Assembly (NCBI RefSeq): GCF_014925385.1 | Contig: NZ_JACSDK010000016.1 | Location: forward strand, 248,001 to 312,000 | Direction of reading: 5' to 3' | Source of the DNA: Pelagibius marinus | GTDB taxonomy: Bacteria; Pseudomonadota; Alphaproteobacteria; Kiloniellales; Kiloniellaceae | DNA: 64,000 bases | Made by a program: the position numbers and the translations under genes | Notes under the pieces: generated by a model | Database searches by the model: none | What the model was told of the DNA's origin: nothing | The model's input: the letters and a program-made list of their open reading frames with translations, nothing else | In this document: piece by piece, positions 3,036-56,788 of the stretch | Position numbering within the stretch: position 1 is the first letter of the stretch | Layout: every line of letters begins with the position of its first letter

Positions 3036-4517
3036 TTGCGCGACTTTATCTTTCCGGTCCGCCACGACGGCGACGTGGGCCTGCAGGCACAGCTCCGCCG
3101 CCAGCTGATCGACGCGATTCTCGACGGCCGCCTGTCGGGCAGCGACCCCCTGCCGTCCTGCCGCCGCCTGGCGCATTCCCTTGGGGTGTCGCGCAACACC
3201 GTCGTCCTGGCCTATCAGGCCCTGGCCGACGAGGGGCTGCTGATATCACGCGAGCGCATCGGCTACTTCGTCAACACCGACATGGTGTTCCAGCAGATCG
3301 ACGGACAAGCCGCCTCTCCCGAGATCGAGCGCAGCAGCGAGGTCGACTGGTTCAACCGCCTGCGGCTCAGGCCGTCGGAACAGCATCACGTGGTCAAGCC
3401 GCGCAACTGGCGCCGCTATCCCTATCCCTTCATCTACGGACAGCCGGACCCCAAGCTGTTCCCGGTCTCGACCTGGCGCATGTGCTCGCGCCAGGCCCTG
3501 GGCGTGGAGGCGATCCAGAGCTGGACCGAGGACAATTTCAACGACGACGACCCGCGCCTCATCGAGGAAATCCGCACCCGAGTCCTGCCGCGCCGCGGCA
3601 TCAAGGCCCAGCCGCAGGAGATCCTCGTCACCCTGGGGGCCCAAAACGCCCTGTTCCTCATCGCCGAGCTGCTGGCCGGGCAGGGCAAGGTGGTCGCCGT
3701 CGAGAACCCCGGCTACGTCGACACCCGCAACATCTTCGCCATCAGCGGCACCGAGTTGCGGCCCATCCCGGTGGACCACGACGGCATGGTCGTCGATCAG
3801 CGCCTGGACGGCTGCACCTGCGCCTACGTGACGCCCAGCCACCAGTCGCCGACCACGGTGACGCTGCCGCTGGAGCGCCGCATGGCCCTGATGGAGAGGG
3901 CGCAGCGCCAGGACTTCCTCATCATCGAGGACGATTACGAGGCGGAGGCCAACTTCCTGCACGCCCCGACCACGGCCCTGAAGGCCATGGACCGCAGCGG
4001 GCGGGTGATCTACGTCGGCAGCTTCTCCAAGTATCTGGGCCCGGGCCTGCGCATGGGCTACATGGTCGGCGCCGAGGAGTTCATCCTCGAGGCGCGCATG
4101 CTGCGCCGCCTGATGCTGCGCCACCCGGCGACCAACAACCAACGCACCCTGGCGCTGTTCATCGCCGGCGGCCATTACGACGCCCTGGTGCACCGCCTGC
4201 AGCGCGACTTCCGCACCCGTTGGGAGCTCATGGGCGACGCCCTGGAGCGCTACCTGCCCGAGTTCACGCGACGGCCGTCCTACGGCGGCACCAGCTTCTG
4301 GCTGGAGGGCCCCAAGAGCCTGGACACCGACATCCTGGCGCGCGAGGCGCTGCAGGAAGGCATCGTCATCGAGCCGGGCTCGGCCCACTTCCTCTCCAAG
4401 AAGCCGCCGCGCAACTTCATGCGCCTCGGCTTTTCCTCCATAGAGCCCGAACAGATCGGTCCGGGCCTCCAGGCGCTCAGCCGGCTGGTGGCGGGGTCGA
4501 TGCAGAAGCGGGAGTAA
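3036..4517 (+). CDS. MocR-family regulator (GntR winged helix fused to PLP aminotransferase-like domain)
   Basis: This 493-residue protein has a GntR-type winged helix at about residues 12-80 (LPSCRRLAHSLGVSRNTV) and a class I aminotransferase-fold domain from about 125 onward. The PLP-binding lysine is K332 in SFSKYLGPGLRMG. MocR proteins are known to sense pyridoxal phosphate plus an amine or amino acid and to switch neighbouring metabolic or transport genes. The start is a TTG at 3036, preceded only by a weak purine stretch (GCGGGTAAAC). It sits near the polyamine-type importer, reading away from it, so control of polyamine or amino-acid uptake is a reasonable inference. The ligand is unknown. 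Confidence 0.88.
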   Translation: MRDFIFPVRHDGDVGLQAQLRRQLIDAILDGRLSGSDPLPSCRRLAHSLGVSRNTVVLAYQALADEGLLISRERIGYFVNTDMVFQQIDGQAASPEIERSSEVDWFNRLRLRPSEQHHVVKPRNWRRYPYPFIYGQPDPKLFPVSTWRMCSRQALGVEAIQSWTEDNFNDDDPRLIEEIRTRVLPRRGIKAQPQEILVTLGAQNALFLIAELLAGQGKVVAVENPGYVDTRNIFAISGTELRPIPVDHDGMVVDQRLDGCTCAYVTPSHQSPTTVTLPLERRMALMERAQRQDFLIIEDDYEAEANFLHAPTTALKAMDRSGRVIYVGSFSKYLGPGLRMGYMVGAEEFILEARMLRRLMLRHPATNNQRTLALFIAGGHYDALVHRLQRDFRTRWELMGDALERYLPEFTRRPSYGGTSFWLEGPKSLDTDILAREALQEGIVIEPGSAHFLSKKPPRNFMRLGFSSIEPEQIGPGLQALSRLVAGSMQKRE

Positions 4518-38435: not shown

Positions 38436-38903
38436 ATGAACGTTAAGGACACAGCGAGAAAACAGTATGTGCGGATCGTAGACCGCGCTGCCGCGCAGCT
38501 TCGCAATTGCCACCGGCCCCAGGACGGATGGCTTGCCTTGCTGCGCCGGGCGCTTGGGATGTCAGGTGCCAACGTTGCTGCCCGCATGGGCGTCAGCCGA
38601 AATGCGGTGTACCAGGCGGAGCGAAACGAACGCGAGGGTGCGATCACAATCGCTCAGATGCGGAAGATCGCCGAGGCCATGGGCGCTGAGTTCGTCTACG
38701 CGGTCATACCTAAAAAAGGCAGCGTCGAGGACGTAATCCGCACCCAGGCACAGCGCAAGGCGGAGGCCCGCGTACGGCGAGCTAGCTCCCACATGGCGCT
38801 TGAAAGTCAGTCTCTACCAAGCGAACAGACAAGAGGACGGATTGAAGATCTCGCCGAGAAGCTGGTTCGCGATATGCCGCCCGACTTCTGGGAAGTCAAA
38901 TGA
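38436..38903 (+). CDS. Mobile mystery protein A (HTH, antitoxin-like)
   Basis: A 155-residue protein with a helix-turn-helix (about residues 44-75: ALGMSGANVAARMGVSRNAV). It matches the 'mobile mystery protein A' family, which is always paired with a Fic-domain 'B' protein on mobile elements. It probably binds its own promoter region, where a 16-bp palindrome is present, and may restrain the Fic partner. The stop overlaps the next start by four bases (ATGA), so expression is coupled. The antitoxin role is inference from the gene pair. Confidence 0.85.
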   Translation: MNVKDTARKQYVRIVDRAAAQLRNCHRPQDGWLALLRRALGMSGANVAARMGVSRNAVYQAERNEREGAITIAQMRKIAEAMGAEFVYAVIPKKGSVEDVIRTQAQRKAEARVRRASSHMALESQSLPSEQTRGRIEDLAEKLVRDMPPDFWEVK

Positions 38904-39502
38904 CCTTCCAAGAACCTGCCGGCGCAACCCCCCTAGATCCCGATGAGCGGCAAGGTCTCAAATACGATCACATCACAACGCGCGGCGAACTCGACGAGTT
39001 AGAGCAGGCAAATATCGAACAGGGACTCGCCTGGGCCTCGAGGCGGCGCAGGCGCGACGTGTTCGATGATGCCTTCATTCGCAGGCTGCACAAGGAACTA
39101 TTCGGCGATGTTTGGACGTGGGCCGGCGAGTACCGGCAAACTGAGAAGAACATCGGCATTGACCCTCTCCAGATTCCTGAACAGATGCGGGTACTGCTCG
39201 GAAATGCACGCTATTGGGCTGAGAACGGTATCTTTTCGCCGCTCGAAGCAGCCGCGCGTTTCCACCATAGGATGGTACAAATACACCCATTTCCAAATGG
39301 CAATGGCCGCCATGCCCGCATTGCCGCCGATATCATGCTTGAAGAAGTTTATGAACATCCGCCAGTCGAATGGGCCAACGGTTTTGATCTTCAAGCGGAT
39401 AATGAACGGCGGCAGGCCTATATCGCCGCATTGCGGGCAGCCGACGGCGAAGATTTCGCACCCTTGCTTTCGTTCGTAGGAACGGTGGAACCCACTAGCT
39501 AA
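38900..39502 (+). CDS. Mobile mystery protein B (Fic/DOC-domain protein)
   Basis: A 200-residue Fic-domain protein. The active-site motif is complete: HPFPNGNGRHAR near residue 131, with the catalytic histidine and the ATP-phosphate-binding NGNGR. Fic enzymes of this sort transfer AMP or phosphate groups to target proteins. No inhibitory S/T-x-x-x-E-G-N motif is obvious in the protein, so control may come from the upstream partner. The pair looks like a stability module of the element. The target is unknown. Confidence 0.87.
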   Translation: MTFQEPAGATPLDPDERQGLKYDHITTRGELDELEQANIEQGLAWASRRRRRDVFDDAFIRRLHKELFGDVWTWAGEYRQTEKNIGIDPLQIPEQMRVLLGNARYWAENGIFSPLEAAARFHHRMVQIHPFPNGNGRHARIAADIMLEEVYEHPPVEWANGFDLQADNERRQAYIAALRAADGEDFAPLLSFVGTVEPTS

Positions 39503-39605
39503 CGCCTAACATGGACAAAATTGCGGCTGACCCAAATTTCAGCCGCATCAGGTTCCAAAATCTGGCACACGGATCGCCAGCTCATCTTCGATATTGCGCA
39601 TCAAC

Positions 39606-39790
39606 GCCAGCGAGGCCGCGCAGCGCATGGCTGTCATAGAAGCGACGCGCTATCTGGAAAAGGAGGCGGCCTGGTCCCGGCATGGGCAGGGTGGAAGGTA
39701 CCGGAATCAGGCCGCCGGGCACCTAACGGCCCAGTTCGATAATTATACCAGCCGTGAGCTGGCGCCGCAGCTTCACGGGCACTCCCCCGG
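39606..39790 (+). pseudogene. MobF relaxase remnant 1
   Basis: Encodes about 60 residues of a TrwC/TraI-type conjugative relaxase: RYLEKEAAWSRHGQGGRYR, then NQAAGHLTAQFDNYTSREL and APQLHGHS. This stretch belongs to the catalytic relaxase domain, near the histidine triad. No upstream tyrosines or downstream helicase are present, so it is a fragment. The same stretch recurs at 42,589 and 51,566. Confidence 0.75.
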
Positions 39791-39905
39791 ACAGCCACGG
39801 CGAATCTTCGGCGTCGAGGCATGGCGGGGGCGCTAGATGCTCGACTTGGTGCATTCTTGGCACCCCAGCTCCCGGCGCGAACCAAGAACCCTAAGGTCTG
39901 AAAGT

Positions 39906-40500: not shown

Positions 40501-40839
40501 ATGGCGAAACTGACCAAGCGCCAGACCCGCAATCACGAGCAGGCCTGCGCCCTGCTGGAGAAGGACGAACTGACATTCGATGAGAAATGGTTCGTTCTGG
40601 GGAACTGGCATGAGGGCGCCAGTCATCTGAACACCGCCGCCGGGGCCTTCTTTACCCCTGTGGATCTCGCCTGCGACTTCAAGCTTGAGATCTGCGGCTC
40701 GAAGGTCGTCGACCTCTGCGCCGGCATCGGCGTCTTGAGCTTCATGCATTACCAGCGCCAGGCGCACGAACGGCGGCCCGAGATCACTACAGGCCAGACG
40801 CTAGCCTCGAACGTGGTGAAGCTAAAGCCGGCGAGTTAG
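40501..40839 (+). pseudogene. Truncated methyltransferase, copy A
   Basis: The first 95 or so residues match the intact gene at 44,271 and include the N-terminal segment and motif I (VVDLCAGIGVLSF). After PEIT the sequence switches to an unrelated tail (TGQTLASNVVKLKPAS) and stops at 112 residues. The catalytic NPPF motif is therefore absent and the product cannot be an active methyltransferase. The leader and ribosome site (GGAGG) are intact, so it may still be expressed. Confidence 0.85.
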
Positions 40840-42390: not shown

Positions 42391-42588
42391 TCGATTCAGT
42401 CGACCGACAATGCATTCATCGAAGCGTTCAATGGTCGGTTCCGGGCCGAATGTCTGAACACCCACTGGTTTTTGAGCCTTGCGGATGCCCGCGAAAAACT
42501 GGAGGATTGGCGTCGATACTACAACGAAGAGAGGCCGCATGGCGCGATCGGCAACAATACCCCGATCACGCTCACGTCCCAAGATAAG
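42391..42588 (+). mobile_element. IS3-family transposase remnant (C-terminal end)
   Basis: The plus strand encodes [20 protein letters not shown], then [20 protein letters not shown] and [14 protein letters not shown], the C-terminal end of an IS3-group OrfB integrase domain. This includes the last catalytic glutamate region ([10 protein letters not shown]) and the YNxxRPH motif. The upstream DDE part and the IS ends are missing. The open frame runs directly into a MobF relaxase remnant. Confidence 0.85.
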
Positions 42589-42720
42589 CAGGGTGGAAAG
42601 CACCGGGAACAGGCCGCCGGGCTCCTAACGGCCCAGTTCGATCACTACACCAGTCGTGAGCTTCACGCGCATTGCTTCACCTTCAATGTAGCGCCGATTC
42701 AGGAATCCACCTTGGTTGCG
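42589..42720 (+). pseudogene. MobF relaxase remnant 2
   Basis: Encodes [20 protein letters not shown], then [16 protein letters not shown], the same relaxase stretch as at 39,606 and 51,566 but with about 12 bases lost after TSREL. It is in frame with the IS3 remnant before it, producing a chimeric open frame from about 42,391 to 42,921. The rest of that frame has no recognisable content. Confidence 0.75.
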
Positions 42721-42930
42721 GCAAGTATACAATGCCAAATCATAGCCGGGTCCAGCGGCGTTCCGGTGTCGCGATTTCAAGGCGGCGAGAGCCTTGGTCG
42801 TAGTCCAACTTCAACGAGATGGCGGCATCCAATCCCCGTAGGGTTGGTCAGGGTTCCAAGGGGTTCGACGGCTTCTTGGTCGATGGGATGGGTCCAGGGT
42901 AAGGGCAGCGCCGAAGCTTAGTTGAAGAGC

Positions 42931-44270: not shown

Positions 44271-45068
44271 ATGGCGAAACTGACCAAGCGCCAGACCCGC
44301 AATCACGAGCAGGCCTGCGCCCTGCTGGAGAAGGACGAACTGACATTCGATGAGAAATGGTTCGTTCTGGGGAACTGGCATGAGGGCGCCAGTCATCTGA
44401 ACACCGCCGCCGGGGCCTTCTTTACCCCTGTGGATCTCGCCTGCGACTTCAAGCTTGAGATCTGCGGCTCGAAGGTCATCGACCTCTGCGCCGGGATCGG
44501 CGTCTTGAGCTTCATGCACTACCACCGCCAGGCCCACGACCGGCGGCCGGAGATCACCTGCATCGACATCAATCCGTCCTATGTCGAGGTCGGCAAGAAG
44601 GTGCTCCCCGAGGCGAGGTGGATATGCGGCGATATCTTCGAGGTCTGCCGCGACCTCGGAGGCTTCGATGTGGCCATCGCCAACCCGCCCTTTGGCCGCG
44701 GCCTCAAGGCACCGGCGGCGCCCCGTTACCGTGGCCCTGACTTCGAGTTCAAGGTCATCGACCTGGCCTCCGACCTAGCGACCTTCGGCGCCTTCATCGT
44801 GCCCCAGAAATCGGCGGGTTTCGTGTTCTCCGGTGCCCCCTACTACGAGCGCCGGGAGAGCGAGGAATACCGCCGCTTTGCCCGCCAGACAGGCCTTCAC
44901 CTGGAAGCCGGCTGTGGCATCGACACGACTGTTCACCAGGACAGCTGGCGCGGCGTTTCTCCCCGTTGCGAAGTCGTCTGCTGCGAGTTCCCCGATCGCG
45001 CGCCCGTGCCGGCTACTCCGCCGACGACCTTCCCCGCCCCGGGCGCCGAGCAAAAGAGCCTCCTTTGA
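44271..45068 (+). CDS. Adenine-type (N6) SAM-dependent methyltransferase of a mobile element
   Basis: A 265-residue class I methyltransferase. The SAM-binding motif I is VIDLCAGIGVLSF near residue 66, the acidic motif II follows in ITCIDINPSY, and the catalytic motif IV is IANPPFGRG near residue 140, the NPPF form used by N6-adenine and some RNA methyltransferases. There is no obvious target-recognition domain and no restriction gene nearby, so an orphan DNA or RNA methyltransferase is likely. GGAGG seven bases upstream supports the ATG. It follows the duplicated leader. The target base and sequence are unknown. Confidence 0.85.
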   Translation: MAKLTKRQTRNHEQACALLEKDELTFDEKWFVLGNWHEGASHLNTAAGAFFTPVDLACDFKLEICGSKVIDLCAGIGVLSFMHYHRQAHDRRPEITCIDINPSYVEVGKKVLPEARWICGDIFEVCRDLGGFDVAIANPPFGRGLKAPAAPRYRGPDFEFKVIDLASDLATFGAFIVPQKSAGFVFSGAPYYERRESEEYRRFARQTGLHLEAGCGIDTTVHQDSWRGVSPRCEVVCCEFPDRAPVPATPPTTFPAPGAEQKSLL

Positions 45069-46063
45069 GGCTCGCCCGGCACGGCGGCGACAGCAATGGG
45101 GCCTTACCCGAATCCCGCTACGGCCTCATTGCTGTTGATTGCTGGGGCTCGCAACCCTCGATGCTAACACTCGCTTGCAGCGCCCGTTTGACTACGATTG
45201 CAGTCGTCTAAATCTGATAATTGAGGCAAAACGGACCAGCGTGTCGGGCGCATCCACTTCGGCATCGTGCCACAACCGGACTGCTATGACCCGAAATGCC
45301 GGCCCCTTCTCCAACAACAGGCCACCGACCTTCGCCGGGCATTTCGATCTCCCTGCCAAATTCAGTGCGGTCACCGTCGTCATGTCCACTTAAAGCAGCA
45401 TTGTATCGTCCACCACGAACTCCTGCCACGGAGTACAGCCTTGGTCGCCAGCTAAGGCCATTCGGAAGCCTGCGCATAGCGCCACGATCCTGTCTAATGA
45501 GAAAGGCCAAGACCTCATGGTGCGACCCGCACTGCGACCTGTCGACCGAAGCGCACCACACATATGTGCCGATCGGTTCCGGCAGAGCAGACGCCATAAT
45601 GGAGAGCAGGCGTCATGCTGGAGAAGGGCGACTTGGAGGGCTAGACGACACGGAATTGGATACGGCTGGCGGTCAAGGCACTGCAGGCCGAATCCTCTGA
45701 AGACGAATCAATAAATTATGCCGGCGATTTCGGAGTAGTACCTCTTGTCGCCTGGACTCCTCAGAAGGATGAGCATGTAATGGAAGTACCTTGACTGATT
45801 AGCTGACAAAGGTCGCTTCAGTGCAAGAGAAGCCAGACGGCAGCCTTCACCGCGGTAGGCGAGTGACAGTTCGGCGTGTCCGTCATCGGTGCCGATATTG
45901 ACCGCGAACACGTGCGACACTCGATGTACTGGGCTTGGTGCAGATGGCCGGCCCGTAGACATTGCCGTCATCGAAATTGCTGGTAGTCCGGTGCGCTCCG
46001 CAGAGGGGCGGATGGTGTTGCCTACTGTCGAAGCACCGACAGTGGAACCGGGAGGATGCGGAA
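45069..46063. other. Gene-poor stretch between methyltransferase and tyrosinase-VWA genes
   Basis: Nearly 1 kb without an assignable gene. Short frames exist on both strands. A minus-strand frame at 45,708-46,178 ends in a protein-like stretch (YFHYMLILLRSPGDKRYYSE) and one at 45,208-45,597 is also open, but neither has a recognisable family, a good start site or steady composition. It may hold decayed genes plus the promoter of the tyrosinase-VWA gene. Confidence 0.35.
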
Positions 46064-49000
46064 ATGAACTGTAGAAAGAACGTGAAGTCGCTGGGCGCCG
46101 CGGAGAAAGCCGCCCTCGTCCAAGCCTTCCTTGATCTGAAGAACCCATCCAAGGCCCCGAGCCAAGTTCCCGCAGCACAGGCCCGTGGCGCGACCAGTCG
46201 TTACGACGATTATGTCTGGCTCCACACGATCGTCGATACAGGAGCCCATCGCAGACCTGGATTTCTTGCTTGGCACCGCAAGTATATCGAGCTGCTCGAA
46301 AAGGACCTGCAGACCGTGTCCGGCAACGCCACGCTCGCCCTGCCCTACTGGGACTGGGCGGACGCGGCGAGCAACCCGTTCACGACTGACTTACTGGGTG
46401 GGGAGGGAGACGGGGCCGACAATCGAGTCACCACAGGCGCCTTCGCATACGCTGAAGGGAACTGGACCCTCAACGTTCCGCCCGAAGACGCCGCGAGCGT
46501 CCAACCCTATCTACAGCGCGATTCCCCCTTCACCCCCAATTCCGGCGTCGCCGTGCTACCGACCCCACAGCAGGTGTTGGACATGCTCGCCGTCACGCCG
46601 CAGGACATGACGCCATGGGACGACTCACCCAGCACCAACGGCTTTCGTAACCAGCTGGAAGGCTGGTTCGGTGCACCGCCGGTCCGCTTCCACAATGCCG
46701 GTCACGTTTATGTCGGCGGCTCCATGCTGCCCGACAGCTCGCCGAACGATCCTGTGTTCTTCCTTCATCACGCCAACGTCGACAGGCTCTGGGCGGTCTG
46801 GCAGCAGAAGCACGCGCCAGCGCTAGGCCAGATCGCGCCATACGTGCCGGGAGCCGGAGAGTCGGCCTCGCTCGCGGGCCATCGGCTGGGCGACAACATG
46901 GCGGTGTTCGGCGCATTTTTTGGCGCCAACTACATTGTCGACAGCGTCCTCGATCACAAGGCCGGCGGCTACATGTACGATACGGACATCCCGTCCGTCA
47001 CCCTCGATACGCCAAGCGTCGACTTTGGCAACGTGCCCGCCGGCGCCACGACATATCACGCTGTTCGCTTCCGCGTTGAGACGGCGCGGCAAGTCCGGTT
47101 TCACATCACCGGCGGGCCATCCGGCAACTTCTCGCAGACGCCGGTCACTACCTTCACTGCGGAGCCCGTTTGCGGGGAGCCGTTCGTCTATGGATATGTC
47201 TTCGTCGCCTACACGGCGCCGAATGTAGGCGGGCCACCGGATAGCAGCTCCGTAACGATTGAGGCTTATATCACCGACACGCAGGGCTATTACGTGCCCA
47301 ATCCCGGCGACGATCTCTCTCTGCTGACCGTGACGGTCGATCTTCTGGCAACACCGGTGCCGGTGCAGAAGACTGCCGTCGCCCTTGTGCTCGATCGCTC
47401 CGGCAGCATGGCGGACACGGCCACCACCAGCTCGACTGGCACGCACACGACCAAGGCTGGGCTACTGAAGGATGCGGTCTCGGTCTTCGCCGCTCTGATG
47501 CGGCCGGAGGACGGCGTCGGCGTCGTCGGATACGACGATTTGGTCGACCGGCTGCTCGACGTTGCAAAAATGGGTCCCTATTCCCCCGTCGCCGCCGGGT
47601 CCGGCCGTGCCGGGATCGATTCCATCCTCGCGGGCGTCAGCCTCGACCCGCGCGGCCTGACCGGCATTGGCGCCGCCATTCTGGAGGCGAACGACGTGCT
47701 TGCAGATGGCCAAGCGGCGGCGAGTGCACTCTCGCCACCCGATCCCTACGACGTGCTGGCGATGGTCGTCATGACCGACGGCAACGAAAACCAGTCGCCG
47801 ACCATCGACAACGTATCCGGCTCGATTTCGGCCAACACATTCGCGGTCGGTCTTGGAACCGCCGGCAATGTCAGCGAGGTCGCGCTGGAGATGATCACCA
47901 AGAATAACAACGGCGACTTGCTCATCACTGGTGACATGAGCAGCGCAGTGCAGGAGTTCTTCCTGACCAAACTGTTCATTCAGGTGCTCGCCGGGGTCAC
48001 CAACCAGGACATCATCCTCGATCCGCGCGCGAACCTTCTGCTGAGTTCCAAGCATCGCATGCCGTTCGATGTAACGGACGCCGACATCGAAATCGACGTC
48101 ATCGGGCTGAGCCATTACCCGGCGCTCCTGGACTTCGCTCTGGAGACGCCCGACGGAACGATCATTCAGCGCGCCGACGCGGTATCGGCGGTGAACATCA
48201 CCTATGTCGAGGATCGCCGGACGGCCTTCTATCGGATCAAGCTGCCGGCCCTGCCGGCCGATGCGCAGGGAAGCCACGCCGGACGCTGGCATGCGCTGAT
48301 GCGATTTGACGAGAAGCGCCTTAAGGAACTTCTGGAGAAGGAGAAGCGATCGGACATCATTGAGTTCCTGCGCTCGAAGCGTCAGTCTCTCGCGTACCAG
48401 CTGATCGTGCAGACACGGTCGAACCTGCACATGAGCGCAAGCGTGCAGCAGAGCCACCACGAGCCCGGCGCCACGCTCGAGTTTCGTGCCGCGCTGGTGG
48501 AATATAATCAGCCGGTCGACCACCGCGCACAGGTGAGAGGCGAGTTGACTCGTCCGGACGGGAGCGTCACAACTCTTTCGTTTGCGGAATACGAGCCTGG
48601 CCGTTTTCGCGCGTCCACGGTGGCGAGCGTCGTAGGTGTCTACACGACGCGGATCATCGCGAGCGGTCGCACGTTGTTCGGCCGGGCATTCACGCGAGAG
48701 CAGCTCATCTCGGCCGCCGTCCACCTGGGAGCGGACTCGCCACGCGGTCCTTCGGACGGTGGCACCGGTGGCAGTTTCGACGAACGCCTGTGCAAGCTTC
48801 TGGAGTGCATCATGAACAAAGCCATCCAGCCGGAATTCGCGGTCAGGCTCAACGAACTTGGCATCAATCTTGATGCCCTGCGGGTTTGCATCAAGGAGTA
48901 TTGCGCGGCGAAAGAACGAACCGCCATGCGAGAGCCGGGCGCTCCTGCGGGCGAGCGTACGACAAAGGGCTCCCCGATCGCCCCTTCAGCAACAGACCGG

Positions 49001-49216
49001 GCCCTCTTTGAGCGCCTCGACAAGATCGAAAACCTCTTTTCGCGGATGGCCTTCGATCGCGAGTCGGAGAGCACCGCATTGGCGATGGCGCAGATGCCGG
49101 AGAGTAAAGGAGAAGTGGCGAGTGCCGCCGACCAGGCGATCGTTCATATTCCGAGCGAAGGCTTCTATACGACGCCTATGGCAGGGGCCTCCAAGCGGTC
49201 ATCGAAGAAGAAATAG
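46064..49216 (+). CDS. Tyrosinase (type-3 copper) fused to a von Willebrand A domain
   Basis: A 1,050-residue multidomain protein. Residues 1-300 form a complete tyrosinase/catechol-oxidase domain: CuA histidines near H54, H62 and H71 (WLHT, GAHRRPGF, AWHRKY), CuB histidines H210 and H214 (RFHNAGHVYVGG) and the HH pair at 235-236 (DPVFFLHHANVDRLWAVW). About residues 310-430 are a beta-sandwich (SVDFGNVPAGAT). About residues 436-640 are a VWA domain with an intact MIDAS (DRSGSM at 444-449; MTDGNEN later). Further beta-rich segments and a C-terminal helix follow. There is no signal peptide, so export, if any, is by another route. GGGAGGA seven bases upstream fixes the ATG at 46,064. Tyrosinases oxidise phenols to quinones; the VWA part suggests metal-dependent adhesion or assembly. 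Confidence 0.88.
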   Translation: MNCRKNVKSLGAAEKAALVQAFLDLKNPSKAPSQVPAAQARGATSRYDDYVWLHTIVDTGAHRRPGFLAWHRKYIELLEKDLQTVSGNATLALPYWDWADAASNPFTTDLLGGEGDGADNRVTTGAFAYAEGNWTLNVPPEDAASVQPYLQRDSPFTPNSGVAVLPTPQQVLDMLAVTPQDMTPWDDSPSTNGFRNQLEGWFGAPPVRFHNAGHVYVGGSMLPDSSPNDPVFFLHHANVDRLWAVWQQKHAPALGQIAPYVPGAGESASLAGHRLGDNMAVFGAFFGANYIVDSVLDHKAGGYMYDTDIPSVTLDTPSVDFGNVPAGATTYHAVRFRVETARQVRFHITGGPSGNFSQTPVTTFTAEPVCGEPFVYGYVFVAYTAPNVGGPPDSSSVTIEAYITDTQGYYVPNPGDDLSLLTVTVDLLATPVPVQKTAVALVLDRSGSMADTATTSSTGTHTTKAGLLKDAVSVFAALMRPEDGVGVVGYDDLVDRLLDVAKMGPYSPVAAGSGRAGIDSILAGVSLDPRGLTGIGAAILEANDVLADGQAAASALSPPDPYDVLAMVVMTDGNENQSPTIDNVSGSISANTFAVGLGTAGNVSEVALEMITKNNNGDLLITGDMSSAVQEFFLTKLFIQVLAGVTNQDIILDPRANLLLSSKHRMPFDVTDADIEIDVIGLSHYPALLDFALETPDGTIIQRADAVSAVNITYVEDRRTAFYRIKLPALPADAQGSHAGRWHALMRFDEKRLKELLEKEKRSDIIEFLRSKRQSLAYQLIVQTRSNLHMSASVQQSHHEPGATLEFRAALVEYNQPVDHRAQVRGELTRPDGSVTTLSFAEYEPGRFRASTVASVVGVYTTRIIASGRTLFGRAFTREQLISAAVHLGADSPRGPSDGGTGGSFDERLCKLLECIMNKAIQPEFAVRLNELGINLDALRVCIKEYCAAKERTAMREPGAPAGERTTKGSPIAPSATDRALFERLDKIENLFSRMAFDRESESTALAMAQMPESKGEVASAADQAIVHIPSEGFYTTPMAGASKRSSKKK

Positions 49217-49470: not shown

Positions 49471-50206
49471 TCACCCTGGCAGACCCGCCCTGCGGAGGCC
49501 CTCAGACCATCCCGCGAAGTCCTCTGGCCGCCAGGAGGCAAACCAATCTGACAGGTTAGACAGCCTTAAGGCGGGGGCCTGCTCCCTTAGGTGGCCGATC
49601 ACCAGGGCAGCCTCGGCGTCCCGTCCGGAAATAGCGGCGCTGGCCGCCGCCACGCCCACGGCGATCGGGAAATTCGGCAGTTCGCGCATCGCACCGCTGG
49701 CCAGCGCATGCGCCTCCTCCTCGTGGCCGGCGAGGAAATGGCCCAGCACGACCACCGCCTGCATGGCGAAGGTCTGGGCGGCCGGGGGGTTAAGGCGCAT
49801 CGCCGGCCACGCCTGCTCCACAGCCGTGTCCGGCTCGCCGCAGATCGCCTTGGCGAACCCGCCGCCCCGAGCGCCACTGCATCGTCCCGGCCCGGCTCGC
49901 CGCGAGCCGCGCGAGCCGGCGGGCCTCGGCCGCCTCGGCCTGGGGATCCGTTAGCCAACCGAACCCCTTGCGCTGGGCATAGCAGCGCGCCGCCATGCCC
50001 AGTGCGGCACCGAAATCGGGATCGAGCTCGAAGGCGCGTGAGAAGCTCCCCAGCGCCTCGCGGTTCGCAGTGCGGTCGAAGCGATGGAACACCACCATGC
50101 CGCGCAGGTAACCCAACCACGTCCGCCGCAAGAATCGCAGCGAGCTTCCTGTTTCCGGGCGTGAAAGTCCCTCCGAAGTGGACGCGTACACACCGTTCCG
50201 CAAACA
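49471..50206 (-). pseudogene. Class III adenylate cyclase with TPR repeats, decayed
   Basis: Minus-strand pieces in different frames add up to a known architecture. NRKLAAILAADVVG near 50,150 is the usual N-terminus of a class III adenylate cyclase. TPR-like repeats then follow (FSRAFELDPDFGAALGMAAR, CYAQRKGFGWLTDPQAEAAE, and in another frame AIAVGVAAASAAISGRDAE and LRLSNLSDWFASW). The catalytic cyclase domain between them is missing and at least two frameshifts separate the pieces. It is a non-functional remnant. Confidence 0.72.
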
Positions 50207-50867
50207 CGGCAATCATTTTCGCTGCGAACAAGGCGCGCTGCGCAGCGGTCGCTCTGACGAGGACCGCGTCGGGTCAAAAGCTGAGCTTTACATGGCTTCT
50301 ATCGAAGTCGGTTAGGAGCACCAGAGGCGACATTCGCTGTAGTCGGCCCCTCCTCTCCTCCCCTGGGCCAAATCCAGTGTCTGGAGGCAGGCATCGAACC
50401 CTTACAGTCGACAAGAGACGAGAGAACTGGTCCCAGTCCCCTAGGCTGCCGGGCTGCGAACCGCGGGACCTGCAAGGCCAGGAAGGACAGGACCCGTCGG
50501 GTGGCGACGCCATCCGCCTCAGAAGCCGCATCCTCGCCGTAGTCTCTCGGGGCTTCTCTGCTGGCCGCCCGCGCCAAACGGCCTCTCCATGGCCTGATCT
50601 GACCGAAGGACGGCTGCGCCTCGATCGCCTCTGCCGCAATGGCGCCGGTTACCTTTCTTCCCCTGCCGCCCCCCACCCCACGCGACAGATCGCTTGGGGA
50701 CCCCGAGGGTGCCGGCATTCCTCGCGCAGCAAGAAAGCTCTCCCGCCTGCCATCCTCCGCTGCGCTGCGGTCGCAAGCGATGCGTCGGCGATCGCCTCCG
50801 GCCTCCCGATCGCCATCGAGGCCGCAATGGTGCGGTCTCACCACAGCAGATCAAGGAGACTTAAATC
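50207..50867. other. Non-coding stretch and leader of the DUF736 gene
   Basis: About 660 bases with only overlapping, unrelated open frames. The last 150 bases are GC-rich with several complementary segments (for example CCGCTGCGCTGCGG near 50,757) and then the ribosome site of DUF736. This resembles the structured leader before the methyltransferase genes in character, not in sequence. Nothing else is seen. Confidence 0.35.
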
Positions 50868-51565: not shown

Positions 51566-52190
51566 CAGTGGCTGCAGGAGAGCGGCCACGCCCACAGCCA
51601 TGCTGCCAGCTGGGACATGACCTTCAGCGCGCCCAAGTCGGTCTCTGTGCTCTGGGCACTTTCTGAGCTGAAAGAGCGCGCCGTCATCGACGCCACGCAG
51701 TGTACGGCTGTCATGGAAGCGATCCGCCATCTGGAAAAGGAGGCGGCCTGCTCCCGACGAGGTCAGGGTGGCAGATGCCGGGAGCAGGCCGCCGGGCCCC
51801 TATCGGCCCAGTTCGATCACTATACCAGCCGTAAACTCGACCCGCAGCTTCGCACGCACTGCTTCATCTTCAATATGGCGCCGCAGAAGGATGGTTCGTG
51901 AGGTGCCATTGTCAGCAAGTAGCTGTACAAGGCTGAGAAGGAAGTTGGCGCAGTCTATGAACTGTGCTCGCGCATGAGCTGGAGCAGCAGAGACACAGGC
52001 TGGAGCGCAAAGGCAACAACTTCCGTGTTGCAGCCATTCCAAAACACATCGAACGAGCATTCTCGAAGCGCCGTCAGGCCATCGAAAAAGCTACCAGCAC
52101 ACATGGCCACAACACCGAATGAGGCATGGAGGTGGCGACACCGTGCACACGCCGGGCCAAGGCAAACGCCAAACTGAGTGGTCTCTTGAA
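51566..52190 (+). pseudogene. MobF relaxase remnant 3 (longest)
   Basis: Pieces of a TrwC-type relaxase in changing frames. SHAASWDMTFSAPKSVSVLW comes near 51,590, then EAIRHLEKEAACSRRGQGGR, FDHYTSRKLDPQLRTHCF, and after further frameshifts LERKGNNFRVAAIP, IERAFSKRRQAIEKA and CTRRAKANAK near 52,150. The order matches the relaxase domain of conjugative elements. Stops and frameshifts, together with loss of the N-terminal tyrosines and the helicase, make it inactive. Confidence 0.8.
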
Positions 52191-53101: not shown

Positions 53102-53896
53102 TCAGTCAGAAATTGCACCATGCCGCATCGCTACGACAAGATCCTGGGCGCTCTGGTCCTTCAGTTGCACCCCGGTCAGACCGCGCTTCAGGGCTGCCTC
53201 AATGAGCCACGCCAGCTTGGACGCGGCCACAGAATAGCCGAGACCGCCCGGCCGGATGTTGGAGACGCAGTTGCGCTCCGCGTCGTTGCGGCCTATTCGC
53301 GGCTCGAAGGTGAGGTAGGCACCGAGACTGTCCGGCGACGACAGCCCCGGCCGCTCGCCGATGAGCACCAGCACAAGCCGCGCCTCCAGGGCCCCGCCGA
53401 TCTCGTCGCCCAGGGCCACACGCCCGCCGCCGGCAACGGCGACCGGCGCCAGGGACAGACCCATCTGTCGCAGCTGCGGCAGCAGGGCTTCGAGCAACGG
53501 CACGACATTGGTCTCGATGGCGGTCGACGACAGTCCGTCGGCGATCACGATCGAGAGGTCGGCGCCCGTCTGGCCAAGATTGCGGACCGCCCGGGCGCTC
53601 GCCTCGTCCAGCCGCCGGCCGAGGTCGGGACGACGCAGGTAGACGTCGCGGCGCGTCGCGGGCGTGGCGACGCAGACCGCGGCCAGGCCGAGGCCGGCCA
53701 GCTTTGCCGCCAGCGCCTCGCCATCGAAGGGCGTGTGCACCGCATCGCGCGCCTGGGCATGGGCCATGGCTATTTTCAATACCTCGGCGGTCAGCAGGCC
53801 CGAGCCGCTGCGGCCCAGCGCGATGCGCGCCGGCGTCAGCCGGCTCAGGTACTTCCAATCCTTCTGCAGAGCGGGGGTTTCCTTGCGCCGGGTCAT
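53102..53896 (-). CDS. eutC: Ethanolamine ammonia-lyase small subunit
   Basis: Small subunit of the adenosylcobalamin-dependent lyase that converts ethanolamine to acetaldehyde and ammonia. The 264-residue protein shows the family pattern: LTPARIALGRSGSGLLTAEV, VIADGLSSTAIETN, and the closing CVSNIRPGGLGY, which contributes to the cobalamin site. Its ATG overlaps the eutB stop by four bases. No microcompartment genes or eutA reactivase are in view, so this is the minimal eutBC form. Confidence 0.95.
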   Translation of the reverse strand: MTRRKETPALQKDWKYLSRLTPARIALGRSGSGLLTAEVLKIAMAHAQARDAVHTPFDGEALAAKLAGLGLAAVCVATPATRRDVYLRRPDLGRRLDEASARAVRNLGQTGADLSIVIADGLSSTAIETNVVPLLEALLPQLRQMGLSLAPVAVAGGGRVALGDEIGGALEARLVLVLIGERPGLSSPDSLGAYLTFEPRIGRNDAERNCVSNIRPGGLGYSVAASKLAWLIEAALKRGLTGVQLKDQSAQDLVVAMRHGAISD

Positions 53897-55275
53897 TCAG
53901 CCAGCTCCATCGGCAGCAGCGGCAGCAAGGCGCTGTGCGGCCGAAGCTGCCCATCATGCCCGGTGATGCCCATGCGCTGGAGCCAGGCCTCGAACTCGGG
54001 CGCCCGTTTCACGCCCAGCACCTCGCGGATGTAGAGCTGGTCATGGAATGACGTGGACTGGTAGTTCAGCATCACGTCGTCCGCCCCCGGCACGCCGATG
54101 ATGAAGGTGACCCCGGCAGCGGCCAGCAGGGTGAGCAGCGTGTCCATGTCGTCCTGGTCCGCCTCGGCGTGGTTGGTGTAGCAGATGTCGCAGCCGATCG
54201 GCAGGCCGAGCAGCTTGCCGCAGAAGTGATCTTCCAGTCCGGCGCGGATGATCTGTTTGCCGTCGTAGAGGTACTCCGGCCCGATGAAGCCGACCACCGT
54301 GTTGACCAGCAACGGATCGAAGGCACGGGCGAGCGCATAGGCGCGCGCCTCGATGGTCTGCTGGTCGACGCCATGATGGGCGGAGGCCGAGAGCGCCGAT
54401 CCCTGCCCGGTCTCGAAGTACATGACATTGTCGCCGAGTGTGCCCCGCTTCAGCGAGAGAGCCGCTTCCCGGCCCTCGGCCAGTACCGCCAGGTCTATGC
54501 CGAAAGAGCGGTTGGCCGCCTCGGTGCCGGCGATCGACTGGAACACCAGGTCAATCGGCAGACCCTTCTCGATGAGCTCGATGGAGGTGGTCACATGGGT
54601 CAGGACGCAGGACTGCGTCGGAATGTCGAAGCGGCCGATGATGTCGTCGAAAAGCAGCGCCAGTTCTGCCATGGCGGCGGTCGAGTCGGAGGCCGGGTTG
54701 ATGCCGATGACCGCGTCCCCGCAGCCGTACATCAGGCCGTCGACCACCGAGGCAGCCACCCCACGCGCATCGTCGGTGGGGTGGTTGGGCTGCAGGCGCA
54801 CCGCCATGGTGCCGGGCAGGCCGATGGTGTTGCGGAAGCGGGTCACCACCACACACTTCCTGGCGACCAGGATGAGGTCCTGGTTGCGCATCAGCTTGGA
54901 CACCGCGGCCGCCATCTCCGGCGTGATGCCCGCGGCCAGCGCCGACAACATCTCCGTCGAGGTCTCCTCGCCGAGCAGAAAGTCGCGGAACTCCCCGACC
55001 GTCATGTGGGAAACCGGCGCGAAGGCTTTCGCATCGTGGCTGTCGAGGATGAGCCGGGTGACCTCGTCGGTCTCGTAGGGCACAAGCGCTTCCGACAGGA
55101 AGGCCTTCAGCGGCACGTCCGCCAGGCACATCTTCGCGGCGACGTTCTCCTCGGCCGAGCCGGCGGCGATGCCGGCCAGCATGTCGCCGGAGCGCGGCGG
55201 CGTGGCCTTGGCCATCAGGTCCTTCAGATCCCGGAACACCCAGGTCTGGCGGCCGGAAGAGTTGCGGTAAGCCAT
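53893..55275 (-). CDS. eutB: Ethanolamine ammonia-lyase large subunit
   Basis: Catalytic large subunit. The 460-residue TIM-barrel protein has the conserved segments DDARGVAASVVDGLMYGCGD, GINPASDSTAAMAEL, TEAANRSFGID, FETGQGSALSASAHHGVDQQ and GLPIGCDICYTNHAEADQDD, the last near the substrate pocket. Length is normal. GAGAGGA six bases before the ATG at 55,275 fixes the start; the longer upstream frame is not family-like. With eutC it supplies ammonia and acetaldehyde from ethanolamine, a membrane-lipid breakdown product. Confidence 0.96.
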   Translation of the reverse strand: MAYRNSSGRQTWVFRDLKDLMAKATPPRSGDMLAGIAAGSAEENVAAKMCLADVPLKAFLSEALVPYETDEVTRLILDSHDAKAFAPVSHMTVGEFRDFLLGEETSTEMLSALAAGITPEMAAAVSKLMRNQDLILVARKCVVVTRFRNTIGLPGTMAVRLQPNHPTDDARGVAASVVDGLMYGCGDAVIGINPASDSTAAMAELALLFDDIIGRFDIPTQSCVLTHVTTSIELIEKGLPIDLVFQSIAGTEAANRSFGIDLAVLAEGREAALSLKRGTLGDNVMYFETGQGSALSASAHHGVDQQTIEARAYALARAFDPLLVNTVVGFIGPEYLYDGKQIIRAGLEDHFCGKLLGLPIGCDICYTNHAEADQDDMDTLLTLLAAAGVTFIIGVPGADDVMLNYQSTSFHDQLYIREVLGVKRAPEFEAWLQRMGITGHDGQLRPHSALLPLLPMELAE

Positions 55276-55492
55276 CGGCGGTCCTCTCAATAACCGACTT
55301 TCTGTCCGGCCCAGCGCCGGCCAGTCCCACCAAGAGAATTTCCCCGATTGCAGGTCCGCCTCTGGAGGTGTCTCGGCCTCCGGTGCCACCCGTCCGTGCG
55401 CCTGCTTATGATTTCCGCGGCGAACCTCGCTGAGATCCGCAGGCTGTTGGCGATTACCTAAGCATCCGGCGGATTTCCTTGGCAAGCGCCTC

Positions 55493-56788
55493 CTAGGCGA
55501 AGCGCAGCGGCGAGCAGGCCGGCGGTGCCGGCGTGTTGCTTCGTCCATCCACGATCGCACTCACCAGGCGGGCGGTCACCGGCGCCAGCGTCAGGCCGAG
55601 ATGGCCATGACCGAAGGCGAGGATGATGTCGCGGCCGCCGCGCGACGAACCAATCACCGGCAGGGAATCCGGCATCGAAGGTCGGAAGCCGAGCCAGCTC
55701 CGCTGCGGCGCGCCGAGCCCGGGGAAGAACTCTTCGGCGCCTTGCCTCAGCAGATCGATACGGCGCGGATTGGGCGGCGCTTTCAGACCCCCCAGCTCGA
55801 CGGTCCCCACGACCCGCAGCCGCCCCCTCAGCGGCACGAAGTAGAAGCCGCGCCCGACCCGGCAGACGGGGCGCGATACCGGCGGCGTCTCCATGTCGTA
55901 CTCGATGTGGTAGCCGCGCTCGGTGTCCAGCGGCACACGGTCGCCGGCCTGCACGGCGAGATGCCGGGAATGCGCGCCGGCGGCAATGACCACGGTCTTG
56001 GCCACGACCTCGGTCTTGCCCCCTTCCGCTGTGTCCGCCGTCACATGGACGCCGCCGTTCCGGCGTTCCAGGGCGCTCGCCGCGGCGGCCAGGATCTCCA
56101 CCCCGGCGGCCGTCGCCGCAGCGGTCAACCGCTCCATGACGCGGGTCGGATCGGCGAGGCTGGCCGCCTGGGGAAAGAAGACGGCGCCTCCCTCCATTGC
56201 CGGCAGGCCGGGTTCGAGGGCCGCCACTTCCGACGGCGCCAACCGCTCCAGCGCAACACCGAGGTCATGCCGCAAGGCGGTGTCCCAGGCCGCCGCGCGC
56301 AGGGCCGAAGCCGTCTCGTAGAGATAGAGGCAGCCGTCCCGGCGCAGGAGGTCCGCGGCGCCGATGGCAGTCGTCAGTTCCTCCCAGAGCGGGACCGCAT
56401 CCGCCAGCAGCTCGGCAATCGCTGCCGCGTTGCGATGCATCCGGCCCGGCGGCGATTGCCAGGCGAAACGCAGCAGCCAAGGCGCCAAGGCCGGCAGGGC
56501 GGCGGTGCGGATCGACAGCGGGCTCGCGCGGTCGAACAGCAGGGCCGGCAGGCTGCGCAGCACCGCCGGCGTTCCCACCGGCAGTACGGCGTAGGTGGCG
56601 ATGGTGGCGGCGTTGCCGTAGGAGGCGCCCGCCCCCGGCACGTTCGGTTCGATGATCAGAACCTCTCGGCCGTCTGCCGCGAGACGCAGGGCGGCAGCCA
56701 GTCCGACCACGCCGCCGCCGATAACGGCGACCTCAGTCGAGCGCCGCCGGGGGACGGCGCCAGGGGATGCGGAATCAGACCTTTGCAT
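55493..56788 (-). CDS. FAD-dependent D-amino-acid dehydrogenase-like oxidoreductase (DadA family)
   Basis: Oxidises an amino acid or amine to the imine, passing electrons to the respiratory chain or oxygen. The 431-residue DAO-family protein has the FAD-binding VIGGGVVGLAAALRLAADGRE near residue 22, the second FAD segment VVIAAGAHSRHLA, and the C-terminal RPSMPDSLPVIGSS and AFGHGHLGLTLAP. Its ATG overlaps the end of the MocR gene by 14 bases, so translation is coupled to the regulator. A RidA gene lies in the divergent unit, fitting an imine-producing reaction. The exact substrate is unknown. Confidence 0.88.
   Translation of the reverse strand: MQRSDSASPGAVPRRRSTEVAVIGGGVVGLAAALRLAADGREVLIIEPNVPGAGASYGNAATIATYAVLPVGTPAVLRSLPALLFDRASPLSIRTAALPALAPWLLRFAWQSPPGRMHRNAAAIAELLADAVPLWEELTTAIGAADLLRRDGCLYLYETASALRAAAWDTALRHDLGVALERLAPSEVAALEPGLPAMEGGAVFFPQAASLADPTRVMERLTAAATAAGVEILAAAASALERRNGGVHVTADTAEGGKTEVVAKTVVIAAGAHSRHLAVQAGDRVPLDTERGYHIEYDMETPPVSRPVCRVGRGFYFVPLRGRLRVVGTVELGGLKAPPNPRRIDLLRQGAEEFFPGLGAPQRSWLGFRPSMPDSLPVIGSSRGGRDIILAFGHGHLGLTLAPVTARLVSAIVDGRSNTPAPPACSPLRFA

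Follow-up and report, generated by a model that had tools for sequence, protein, structure and literature searches.

The question raised by this locus is why a tyrosinase should carry a large C-terminal part that contains a von Willebrand factor A (VWA) domain. The gene lies in a 64,000-nucleotide stretch of Pelagibius marinus DNA (contig NZ_JACSDK010000016.1, positions 248,001–312,000; hereafter the window), and an initial annotation made from the letters alone had suggested that the C-terminal part may anchor the enzyme to a surface or polymer, cap its active site or direct quinone cross-linking of a protein partner. A domain search, a structure model and a survey of co-occurrence confirm the joining of tyrosinase and VWA, and place the C-terminal part as a shared module behind five unrelated enzyme families in at least 27 proteins. 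These results suggest a rare, exchangeable enzyme platform that is built like the animal CLCA mucus proteases.

The C-terminal module and its five enzyme families

The gene is a single open frame of 1,050 codons without an internal stop, preceded by the ribosome-binding site that had been noted initially, and Pfam matches both domains within it. A frame error fusing two genes is unlikely because full-length relatives in other records keep the same domain order. The Pfam Tyrosinase model (PF00264) matches residues 45–249 over its curated cut-off (E = 7.9e-43, 147.7 bits versus 22.6). The six histidines noted initially (H54, H62, H71, H210, H214 and H236, which we take to be the copper ligands from the family) are recovered in an alignment of 12 tyrosinases, in which five ligand columns hold histidine in all 12 sequences and that of H62 in 11, the exception being L084 with an adjoining insertion. 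N211, next to H210, occupies an activity-controller position described in an excerpt of PMC10526336, and together with V215 it forms, after the first and second copper B histidines, the pair given there for the Streptomyces avermitilis tyrosinase. The VWA_2 model matches residues 439–554 (E = 1.6e-7, 32.3 bits versus a cut-off of 27), while a second VWA model (PF00092) remains under its cut-off. The metal-dependent adhesion site (MIDAS) is complete, as had been claimed, with D444, S446, S448 and T533 invariant in 17 of 17 alignment rows and D572 nearly so.

The C-terminal ∼640 residues constitute a defined module of a beta-rich domain, the VWA domain, a second beta-rich domain, an Ig-like domain and a helical hairpin (Table 1). 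The last three, predicted behind the VWA domain, go beyond what had been noted before. Domain boundaries after the tyrosinase are our own reading of the strands and helices in an AlphaFold model (14 alignment rows, mean predicted local distance difference test score 69, predicted template-modelling score 0.59), which is good over most of the module, whereas the tail and parts of the tyrosinase are poorly modelled. Beta-rich domain 1 gives a weak choice_anch_D match, far under the cut-off. Filamin, YtkA and FixH models each match four to five of the 17 members, filamin Ig repeats matching positions 477–536 of the module profile, and the alignment lacks the hairpin in L021 and L024.

Each protein that carries the module has its enzyme in front and the module behind. 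Tyrosinase forms account for ten of the 27 (the window protein and those of loci L009, L010, L012, L014, L024, L025, L071, L084 and L109) and LodA-type lysine oxidase forms for nine (L016, which is cut at a contig end, L020, L021 and L103–L108); the others are M14 carboxypeptidase (L011, L022 and L023), S8 subtilase (L015, L017 and L018) and M64 peptidase (L013 and L019) forms. The enzyme labels of L018, L023 and L025 were given by likeness to L017, L011 and L009, respectively, and those of L103–L109 by purpose-built profiles and not by Pfam. Two of the tyrosinase forms, L012 and L071, have C-terminal tails rich in His and Asp (HDHDHDHDH in the latter) that possibly hold copper.

A tblastn search with the window protein against 72,556 plasmid records produced 87 matches. 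Among the 40 of the 87 listed, the query is covered to 80% or more at one place (84%, in Haloarcula sp. JP-L23), to 73% in Microvirga ossetica and to 42% in Caballeronia insecticola, and the other 37 cover the tyrosinase part alone; the Caballeronia protein has an M14 carboxypeptidase in place of the tyrosinase. L009, L010 and L011 are plasmid or megaplasmid genes, the collection being one of plasmids only. A scan of Genome Taxonomy Database (GTDB) contigs with the single window protein as query gave no relatives, and one with a four-row module alignment (A1) gave at least 40, of which at least 14 are full-length for the module and at least 26 are weaker VWA relatives; further genome searches added L071, L084 and L103–L109. 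Against a 17-row profile of 607 positions (A2), the window protein, itself one of the rows, matches over the full length (737 bits, positions 2–605). Full members score 480–851 bits and the next proteins no more than 224, with the 17 of the 27 members used to build A2 scoring high by construction and L018, L071, L084 and L103–L109 lying outside it. A plasmid search at the DNA level found short tyrosinase pieces only, a phage search found no match, and viral contigs held no relative with the query P0001 and, with A2, four loci matching in the VWA region only.

Other architectures were observed among more distant proteins. The second-tier VWA proteins L030, L031, L032 and L080 have trypsin-like or M10-like peptidase domains in front, and the VWA relatives L026, L027, L029 and L079 have choice-of-anchor-D/ASH-like repeats and no enzyme by Pfam, L026 ending in what by eye is a likely membrane segment. 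In L092 (1501–3312), a Methylobacter plasmid tyrosinase is followed by near-identical repeats of ∼49 residues (AVSHSSGVVEVFWVRPDG...), with a 93-residue open reading frame (ORF) directly upstream.

Table 1. Positions of the fusion gene, its domains and its motifs in the window
Feature	Position	Strand	Basis or remark
Tyrosinase–VWA fusion gene	46064..49216	+	1,050 residues, ATG to stop
Ribosome-binding site GGGAGG	46050..46055	+	Sequence; eight bases 5' of ATG
61-residue ORF overlapping the start of the fusion gene	45889..46074	+	Sequence
Tyrosinase core domain, residues 45–249	46196..46810	+	Pfam
Copper A ligands H54, H62, H71	46223..46276	+	Alignment of 12 tyrosinases
Copper B ligands H210, H214, H236	46691..46771	+	Alignment of 12 tyrosinases
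Beta-rich domain 1, about residues 308–432, opens the shared module	46985..47359	+	Model strands; boundaries by reading
VWA domain, about residues 437–645	47372..47998	+	Pfam, model
MIDAS motif DRSGS (444–448)	47393..47407	+	Alignment
MIDAS-completing residue T533	47660..47662	+	Alignment
MIDAS-completing residue D572	47777..47779	+	Alignment
Beta-rich domain 2, about residues 649–796, helices 750–771	48008..48451	+	Model strands; boundaries by reading
Ig-like domain, about residues 803–886	48470..48721	+	Model strands
Helical hairpin with cysteines, about residues 905–955	48776..48928	+	Model, alignment
C-terminal tail, 95–100 residues, outside the shared module	48929..49213	+	Low model confidence

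Exchange of the enzyme and spread of the module

The enzyme on the module has been swapped more than once. A tree of 19 module sequences requires seven changes among the five enzyme labels, compared with four if each had a single origin. One origin of the tyrosinase forms is rejected on this tree by the approximately unbiased test (p-AU 2e-20; 3e-6 without L010, L071 and L018), as is a single origin of the M64 forms (p-AU 4e-4); the LodA forms make up one group. In a tree of 21 tyrosinase domains the eight that belong to module proteins do not form a single clade (p-AU 1e-4), and those of L014, L024 and L084 cluster with a tyrosinase from a genome of the window's order, the 899-residue frame of which has no module match. 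The non-module members of this second tree are a chosen sample of nine of the 87 plasmid hits and four loci from kin genomes.

The module is rare, with a patchy distribution over Actinomycetota, Proteobacteria, Bacteroidota, Myxococcota and haloarchaea. With the centre genome left out in each case, full members were found in none of 384 genomes of the window's own class, none of 395 of the phylum of Kribbella, none of 246 of the phylum of Dyadobacter, none of 144 of the class of Haloarcula and one of 249 of the order of Paraburkholderia. These counts are lower bounds, three to eight candidates having been scored per genome, and omit the weaker VWA relatives L053 and L079–L083. Within Kribbella, the genus of L020, eight of 38 genomes have the module (seven LodA and two tyrosinase forms, one genome having both); L020 and the tyrosinase form L071 lie ∼50 kb apart on one contig of a Kribbella genome (G446). 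Seven close pairs of module genes give ratios of nonsynonymous to synonymous substitution rates (dN/dS) of 0.087–0.164, and the relatives are under purifying selection.

Possible roles of the module

Of the roles suggested initially, anchoring of the enzyme to a surface or polymer fits best, because five unrelated enzymes are carried by the same C-terminal part. There is roughly an even chance that the tyrosinase is carried on a CLCA-type scaffold that holds it on a protein ligand or polymer. Domain content, conservation and exchange were observed here; docking, cross-linking and export are inferred. The VWA MIDAS and the beta-rich domains would attach the scaffold to a protein ligand or a polymer rich in protein, and binding would place the enzyme beside its substrate. 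The tyrosinase might then oxidize tyrosyl or other phenol groups to quinones, and the material would be cross-linked or darkened as a result; LodA forms would oxidize lysyl groups and peptidase forms would cleave. Proteins or amino acids can be substrates of all five enzyme types, the one property that these have in common, which leads us to favour a proteinaceous target for the whole set. It is possible, if rather doubtful, that these proteins are the prokaryotic counterpart of animal CLCA, an exchangeable platform that carries unrelated protein-modifying enzymes (cross-linking tyrosine and lysine oxidases and three peptidase classes) with their own helpers, hardens or dissolves proteinaceous matter and leaves the cell without a signal peptide.

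The best fold match of the VWA domain in the model is the VWA domain of human CLCA1. In a search of the module profile against sequences in the Protein Data Bank (PDB), CLCA1 ranks second, behind a protein that has two VWA stretches. Twelve of 17 members match TIGR00868 with scores under its cut-off (33 bits for the best member versus 900.85), and the distant relative L027 matches it in two stretches, the better one after the VWA domain. The sequence link of the post-VWA domains to CLCA runs only through L027 and L014, and the fold list barely covers this part.

Candidate helper genes adjoin some of the forms. The two Haloarcula forms and the Microvirga form (L009, L010 and L025) have an ORF of 66–84 residues abutting or overlapping the gene start; that of Haloarcula shows weak MelC1 similarity (E about 0.001–0.002 in a set of eight sequences) and that of Microvirga has no match to the MelC1 profile (E = 1.2). 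The M14 forms L011 and L023 have a common upstream ORF (46% identity over 140 residues, E = 8e-38), the two M64 forms have ORFs of 145–153 residues with a weak mutual match (E = 0.003, 62 residues) and the LodA forms L016, L020 and L021 have a related ORF just downstream, FAD-binding by Pfam in L016 and L021. According to part of PMC4417212, LodB is an FAD-binding flavoprotein, like these downstream ORFs. The window gene has no recognizable helper gene; the 61-residue ORF at its start, which has small counterparts at a like place in some relatives, shows no caddie likeness on comparison. In the flanks of 18 loci (up to 10 kb, some much shorter; 40 largest clusters), other common frames are antisense shadows of the module, antisense frames of the M14 and LodA genes and a common region of the two Haloarcula loci. 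TonB-receptor-like ORFs lie near L015, L017 and L018 (by Pfam for L017 only). Next to the Caballeronia M14 form, positions 3360–5480 of L011 (minus strand) encode a divergent 706-residue metallopeptidase-like protein (HEIGHAMG; Pfam matches below cut-off) in the opposite direction.

Several observations weigh against the scaffold reading. The missing export signal is the chief unexplained point: hydropathy, the one method applied, shows neither a signal-peptide-like start nor a membrane segment at a terminus in any of the 19 proteins examined, an odd lack in a device for adhesion. This result agrees with the initial remark on the window protein; several of the start codons were chosen by us, and the start is missing from L016. 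The window protein has no TIGR00868 match at E up to 1, and L017, L019 and L022 have none at 0.05. Matches of the VWA and tyrosinase parts take up the fold-comparison list, which barely tests the other domains, and the tyrosinase part of the 14-row model is poor. As to exchange, the M14 (p = 0.064) and S8 (p = 0.12) forms are each compatible with one origin, and both trees are long-branched (starred inner branches 7 of 16 for the module and 6 of 18 for the tyrosinase). The labels also cluster above chance (seven changes versus 10.2 in shuffles), so that exchange appears to have been repeated but not rampant. Helper genes are not general, accompanying three of ten tyrosinase forms, two of three M14 forms, both M64 forms, the three LodA forms examined of nine and no S8 form (all tyrosinase forms but L109 having been examined, L071 and L084 over less than 700 bases of upstream sequence). 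No neighbour common to the enzyme types points to a target or exporter in the flanks of the 18 loci, and no caddie lies within 2.5 kb upstream of the window gene (six-row caddie profile, six frames; a very divergent one could escape).

The missing caddie, which extends over the same distance to L012, L014 and L024, would suit an intramolecular cap or maturation aid that closes the tyrosinase site or assists copper loading in place of a caddie. A gatekeeper residue is known from C-terminal extensions of other tyrosinases (PMC10526336, in excerpt), and the His-rich tails of L012 and L071 could hold copper. However, a module that also stands behind peptidases and LodA oxidases does not look specific to tyrosinase, and L009, L010 and L025 have a small ORF at the caddie position in addition (MelC1 similarity weak or absent); the cap suggested initially is thus unlikely, although the tail of 95–100 residues lies outside the module and is modelled with low confidence. 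VWA proteins also serve as chaperones as partners of MoxR-type ATPases, and in a cytoplasmic arm of this kind the VWA domain would help to insert a cofactor (copper, cysteine tryptophylquinone or zinc) into an enzyme that works inside the cell. The lack of an export signal by hydropathy is consistent with such an arm, most of the enzymes need a metal or built-in cofactor and three LodA members adjoin a LodB-like flavoprotein. Subtilases, however, need no such cofactor, no ATPase recurs in the 18 flanks, the nearest VWA fold is that of CLCA1 and the module has predicted beta-rich and Ig-like domains, as adhesion proteins do, which makes this role distinctly unlikely.

Delivery as an effector by a contractile injection system (eCIS) or similar would account for the missing signal peptide, the spread across bacteria and archaea is patchy, and VWA domains are noted in eCIS loci in the part of PMC8213781 available. 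The eCIS marker Pvc16_N (PF14065), however, occurs in three of 16 module genomes (L013, L016 and L020), is absent from the window's genome and is found in none of 14 well-known control genomes, and no injection gene recurs in the flanks; eCIS cargo was rejected and is very improbable. The gene might also be a passenger taken in with mobile DNA, without present use in this genome. It lies among relaxase and transposase fragments, is the only tyrosinase of its genome and has no full-length match in 57 kin genomes. Its long frame nevertheless lacks a stop, the ligand and MIDAS residues are kept, and purifying selection acts on relatives (as measured on pairs of relatives, no close relative of this gene having been found); the passenger explanation is very improbable. 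Anti-phage defence was rejected as well, PADLOC having matched only the subtilase domain of L015 among five module proteins.

On the reading of a CLCA-type scaffold, what appeared to be a single odd fusion becomes a testable family with one scaffold, five enzymes and more than one exchange. Should the scaffold direct enzymes to protein polymers, it would tie bacterial tyrosinases as well as lysine oxidases to matrix chemistry, the module would be a natural part for directing cross-linking enzymes and its members would be prokaryotic models of the poorly understood C-terminal half of CLCA.

Genomic setting and relation to known systems

The mobile-element debris described initially around the gene is present, comprising relaxase and transposase fragments, a DUF736 gene and a helix-turn-helix (HTH)–Fic pair. 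Pfam identifies a TrwC relaxase fragment at 51617–51898 and, below the cut-off, another at 42472–42918 fused to an integrase-core end. The G+C content is 0.54–0.62 from 36 to 46 kb versus 0.65 for the whole window; the fusion gene (0.624) is at the edge of this stretch, with a third-position G+C of 0.76 compared with 0.83–0.85 in three other genes. It is the sole PF00264 match in its genome, and none of the 57 kin genomes has more than a tyrosinase-domain match, which four of them have. The earlier view of the gene as an accessory trait is supported by these four features, namely the sole match, the absence of a full-length form in kin, the mobile debris and the lower-G+C edge.

Other features were seen nearby. 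The HTH and Fic proteins are encoded in that order at 38436–39502 (plus strand), resembling the 'mobile mystery' A/B pair. Two methyltransferase-like copies (40501–40839 and 44271–45068, plus strand), the first shortened, have near-identical N-termini and similar flanks and look like a duplicated mobile segment; they were judged by eye, with Pfam support for the second only. Three plus-strand frames (39594–39836, 42472–42921 and 51617–51901) have in common a relaxase-like stretch, AAGxL[TS]AQFDxYTSR; Pfam assigns the third to TrwC and, weakly, the second, and the first was recognized only by eye. An apparent remnant of an adenylate-cyclase/TPR-type gene, seen by eye, lies at 49599–50231 (minus strand), and a gene for EutB ethanolamine ammonia-lyase at 53893–55560.

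CLCA proteins, the calcium-activated chloride channel regulators of animals and their rare relatives in prokaryotes, have the order enzyme, VWA with MIDAS, beta-rich domain and FnIII/Ig-like domain (PMC3650047 and PMC6851300, each in part), as is modelled for the module proteins, and the MIDAS-bearing VWA domain of the window protein is close to its CLCA counterpart. CLCAs are described in the same portion of PMC6851300 as secreted, with CLCA1 acting on mucin, and an excerpt of PMC3650047 reports exchange of the enzyme in the CLCA architecture, for M10 in Teredinibacter and CHAP in Methanosarcina. The module proteins differ in that they lack the CLCA_N metalloprotease, having tyrosinase in its place or another of five other enzyme families, two of them oxidases, and in that the VWA is preceded by a beta-rich domain, a helical hairpin closes the module and no signal peptide is seen. 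No prokaryotic CLCA turned up for direct comparison: CLCA_N was over the cut-off in none of 369 Gammaproteobacteria, with one weak match containing internal stops, and in none of six in a second set, in which the controls were also silent.

LodA-like quinoproteins with a vWA domain are described in part of PMC4417212 from Amycolatopsis vancoresmycina (1,114 residues) and Cryptosporangium arvum (1,026 residues). Compared by description only, they have pfam13519 and are similar in size to the LodA members (L020, 1,117 residues; L021, 1,060 residues), and they are probably the LodA form of this module; the available part of that paper draws no tie to forms with a tyrosinase or a peptidase. Two LodA–vWA proteins, and swaps of the enzyme on proteins of the CLCA type, are thus already published, and a literature search turned up no paper describing the tyrosinase form or the set of five enzymes.

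Compared with the MelC2-type tyrosinases of Streptomyces and Priestia, the window protein is far below the cut-off of the NCBIfam MelC2 equivalog (195 versus 450 bits), has no caddie found and has ∼740 extra residues. The tyrosinases of Verrucomicrobium spinosum and of plants and fungi have, as here, the enzyme first and an extra domain behind. In these C-terminal-extension tyrosinases the extra domain is, in the portion of PMC10526336 available, a jelly-roll that gates the site, whereas the window protein has in its place a module of several domains that other enzymes carry too.

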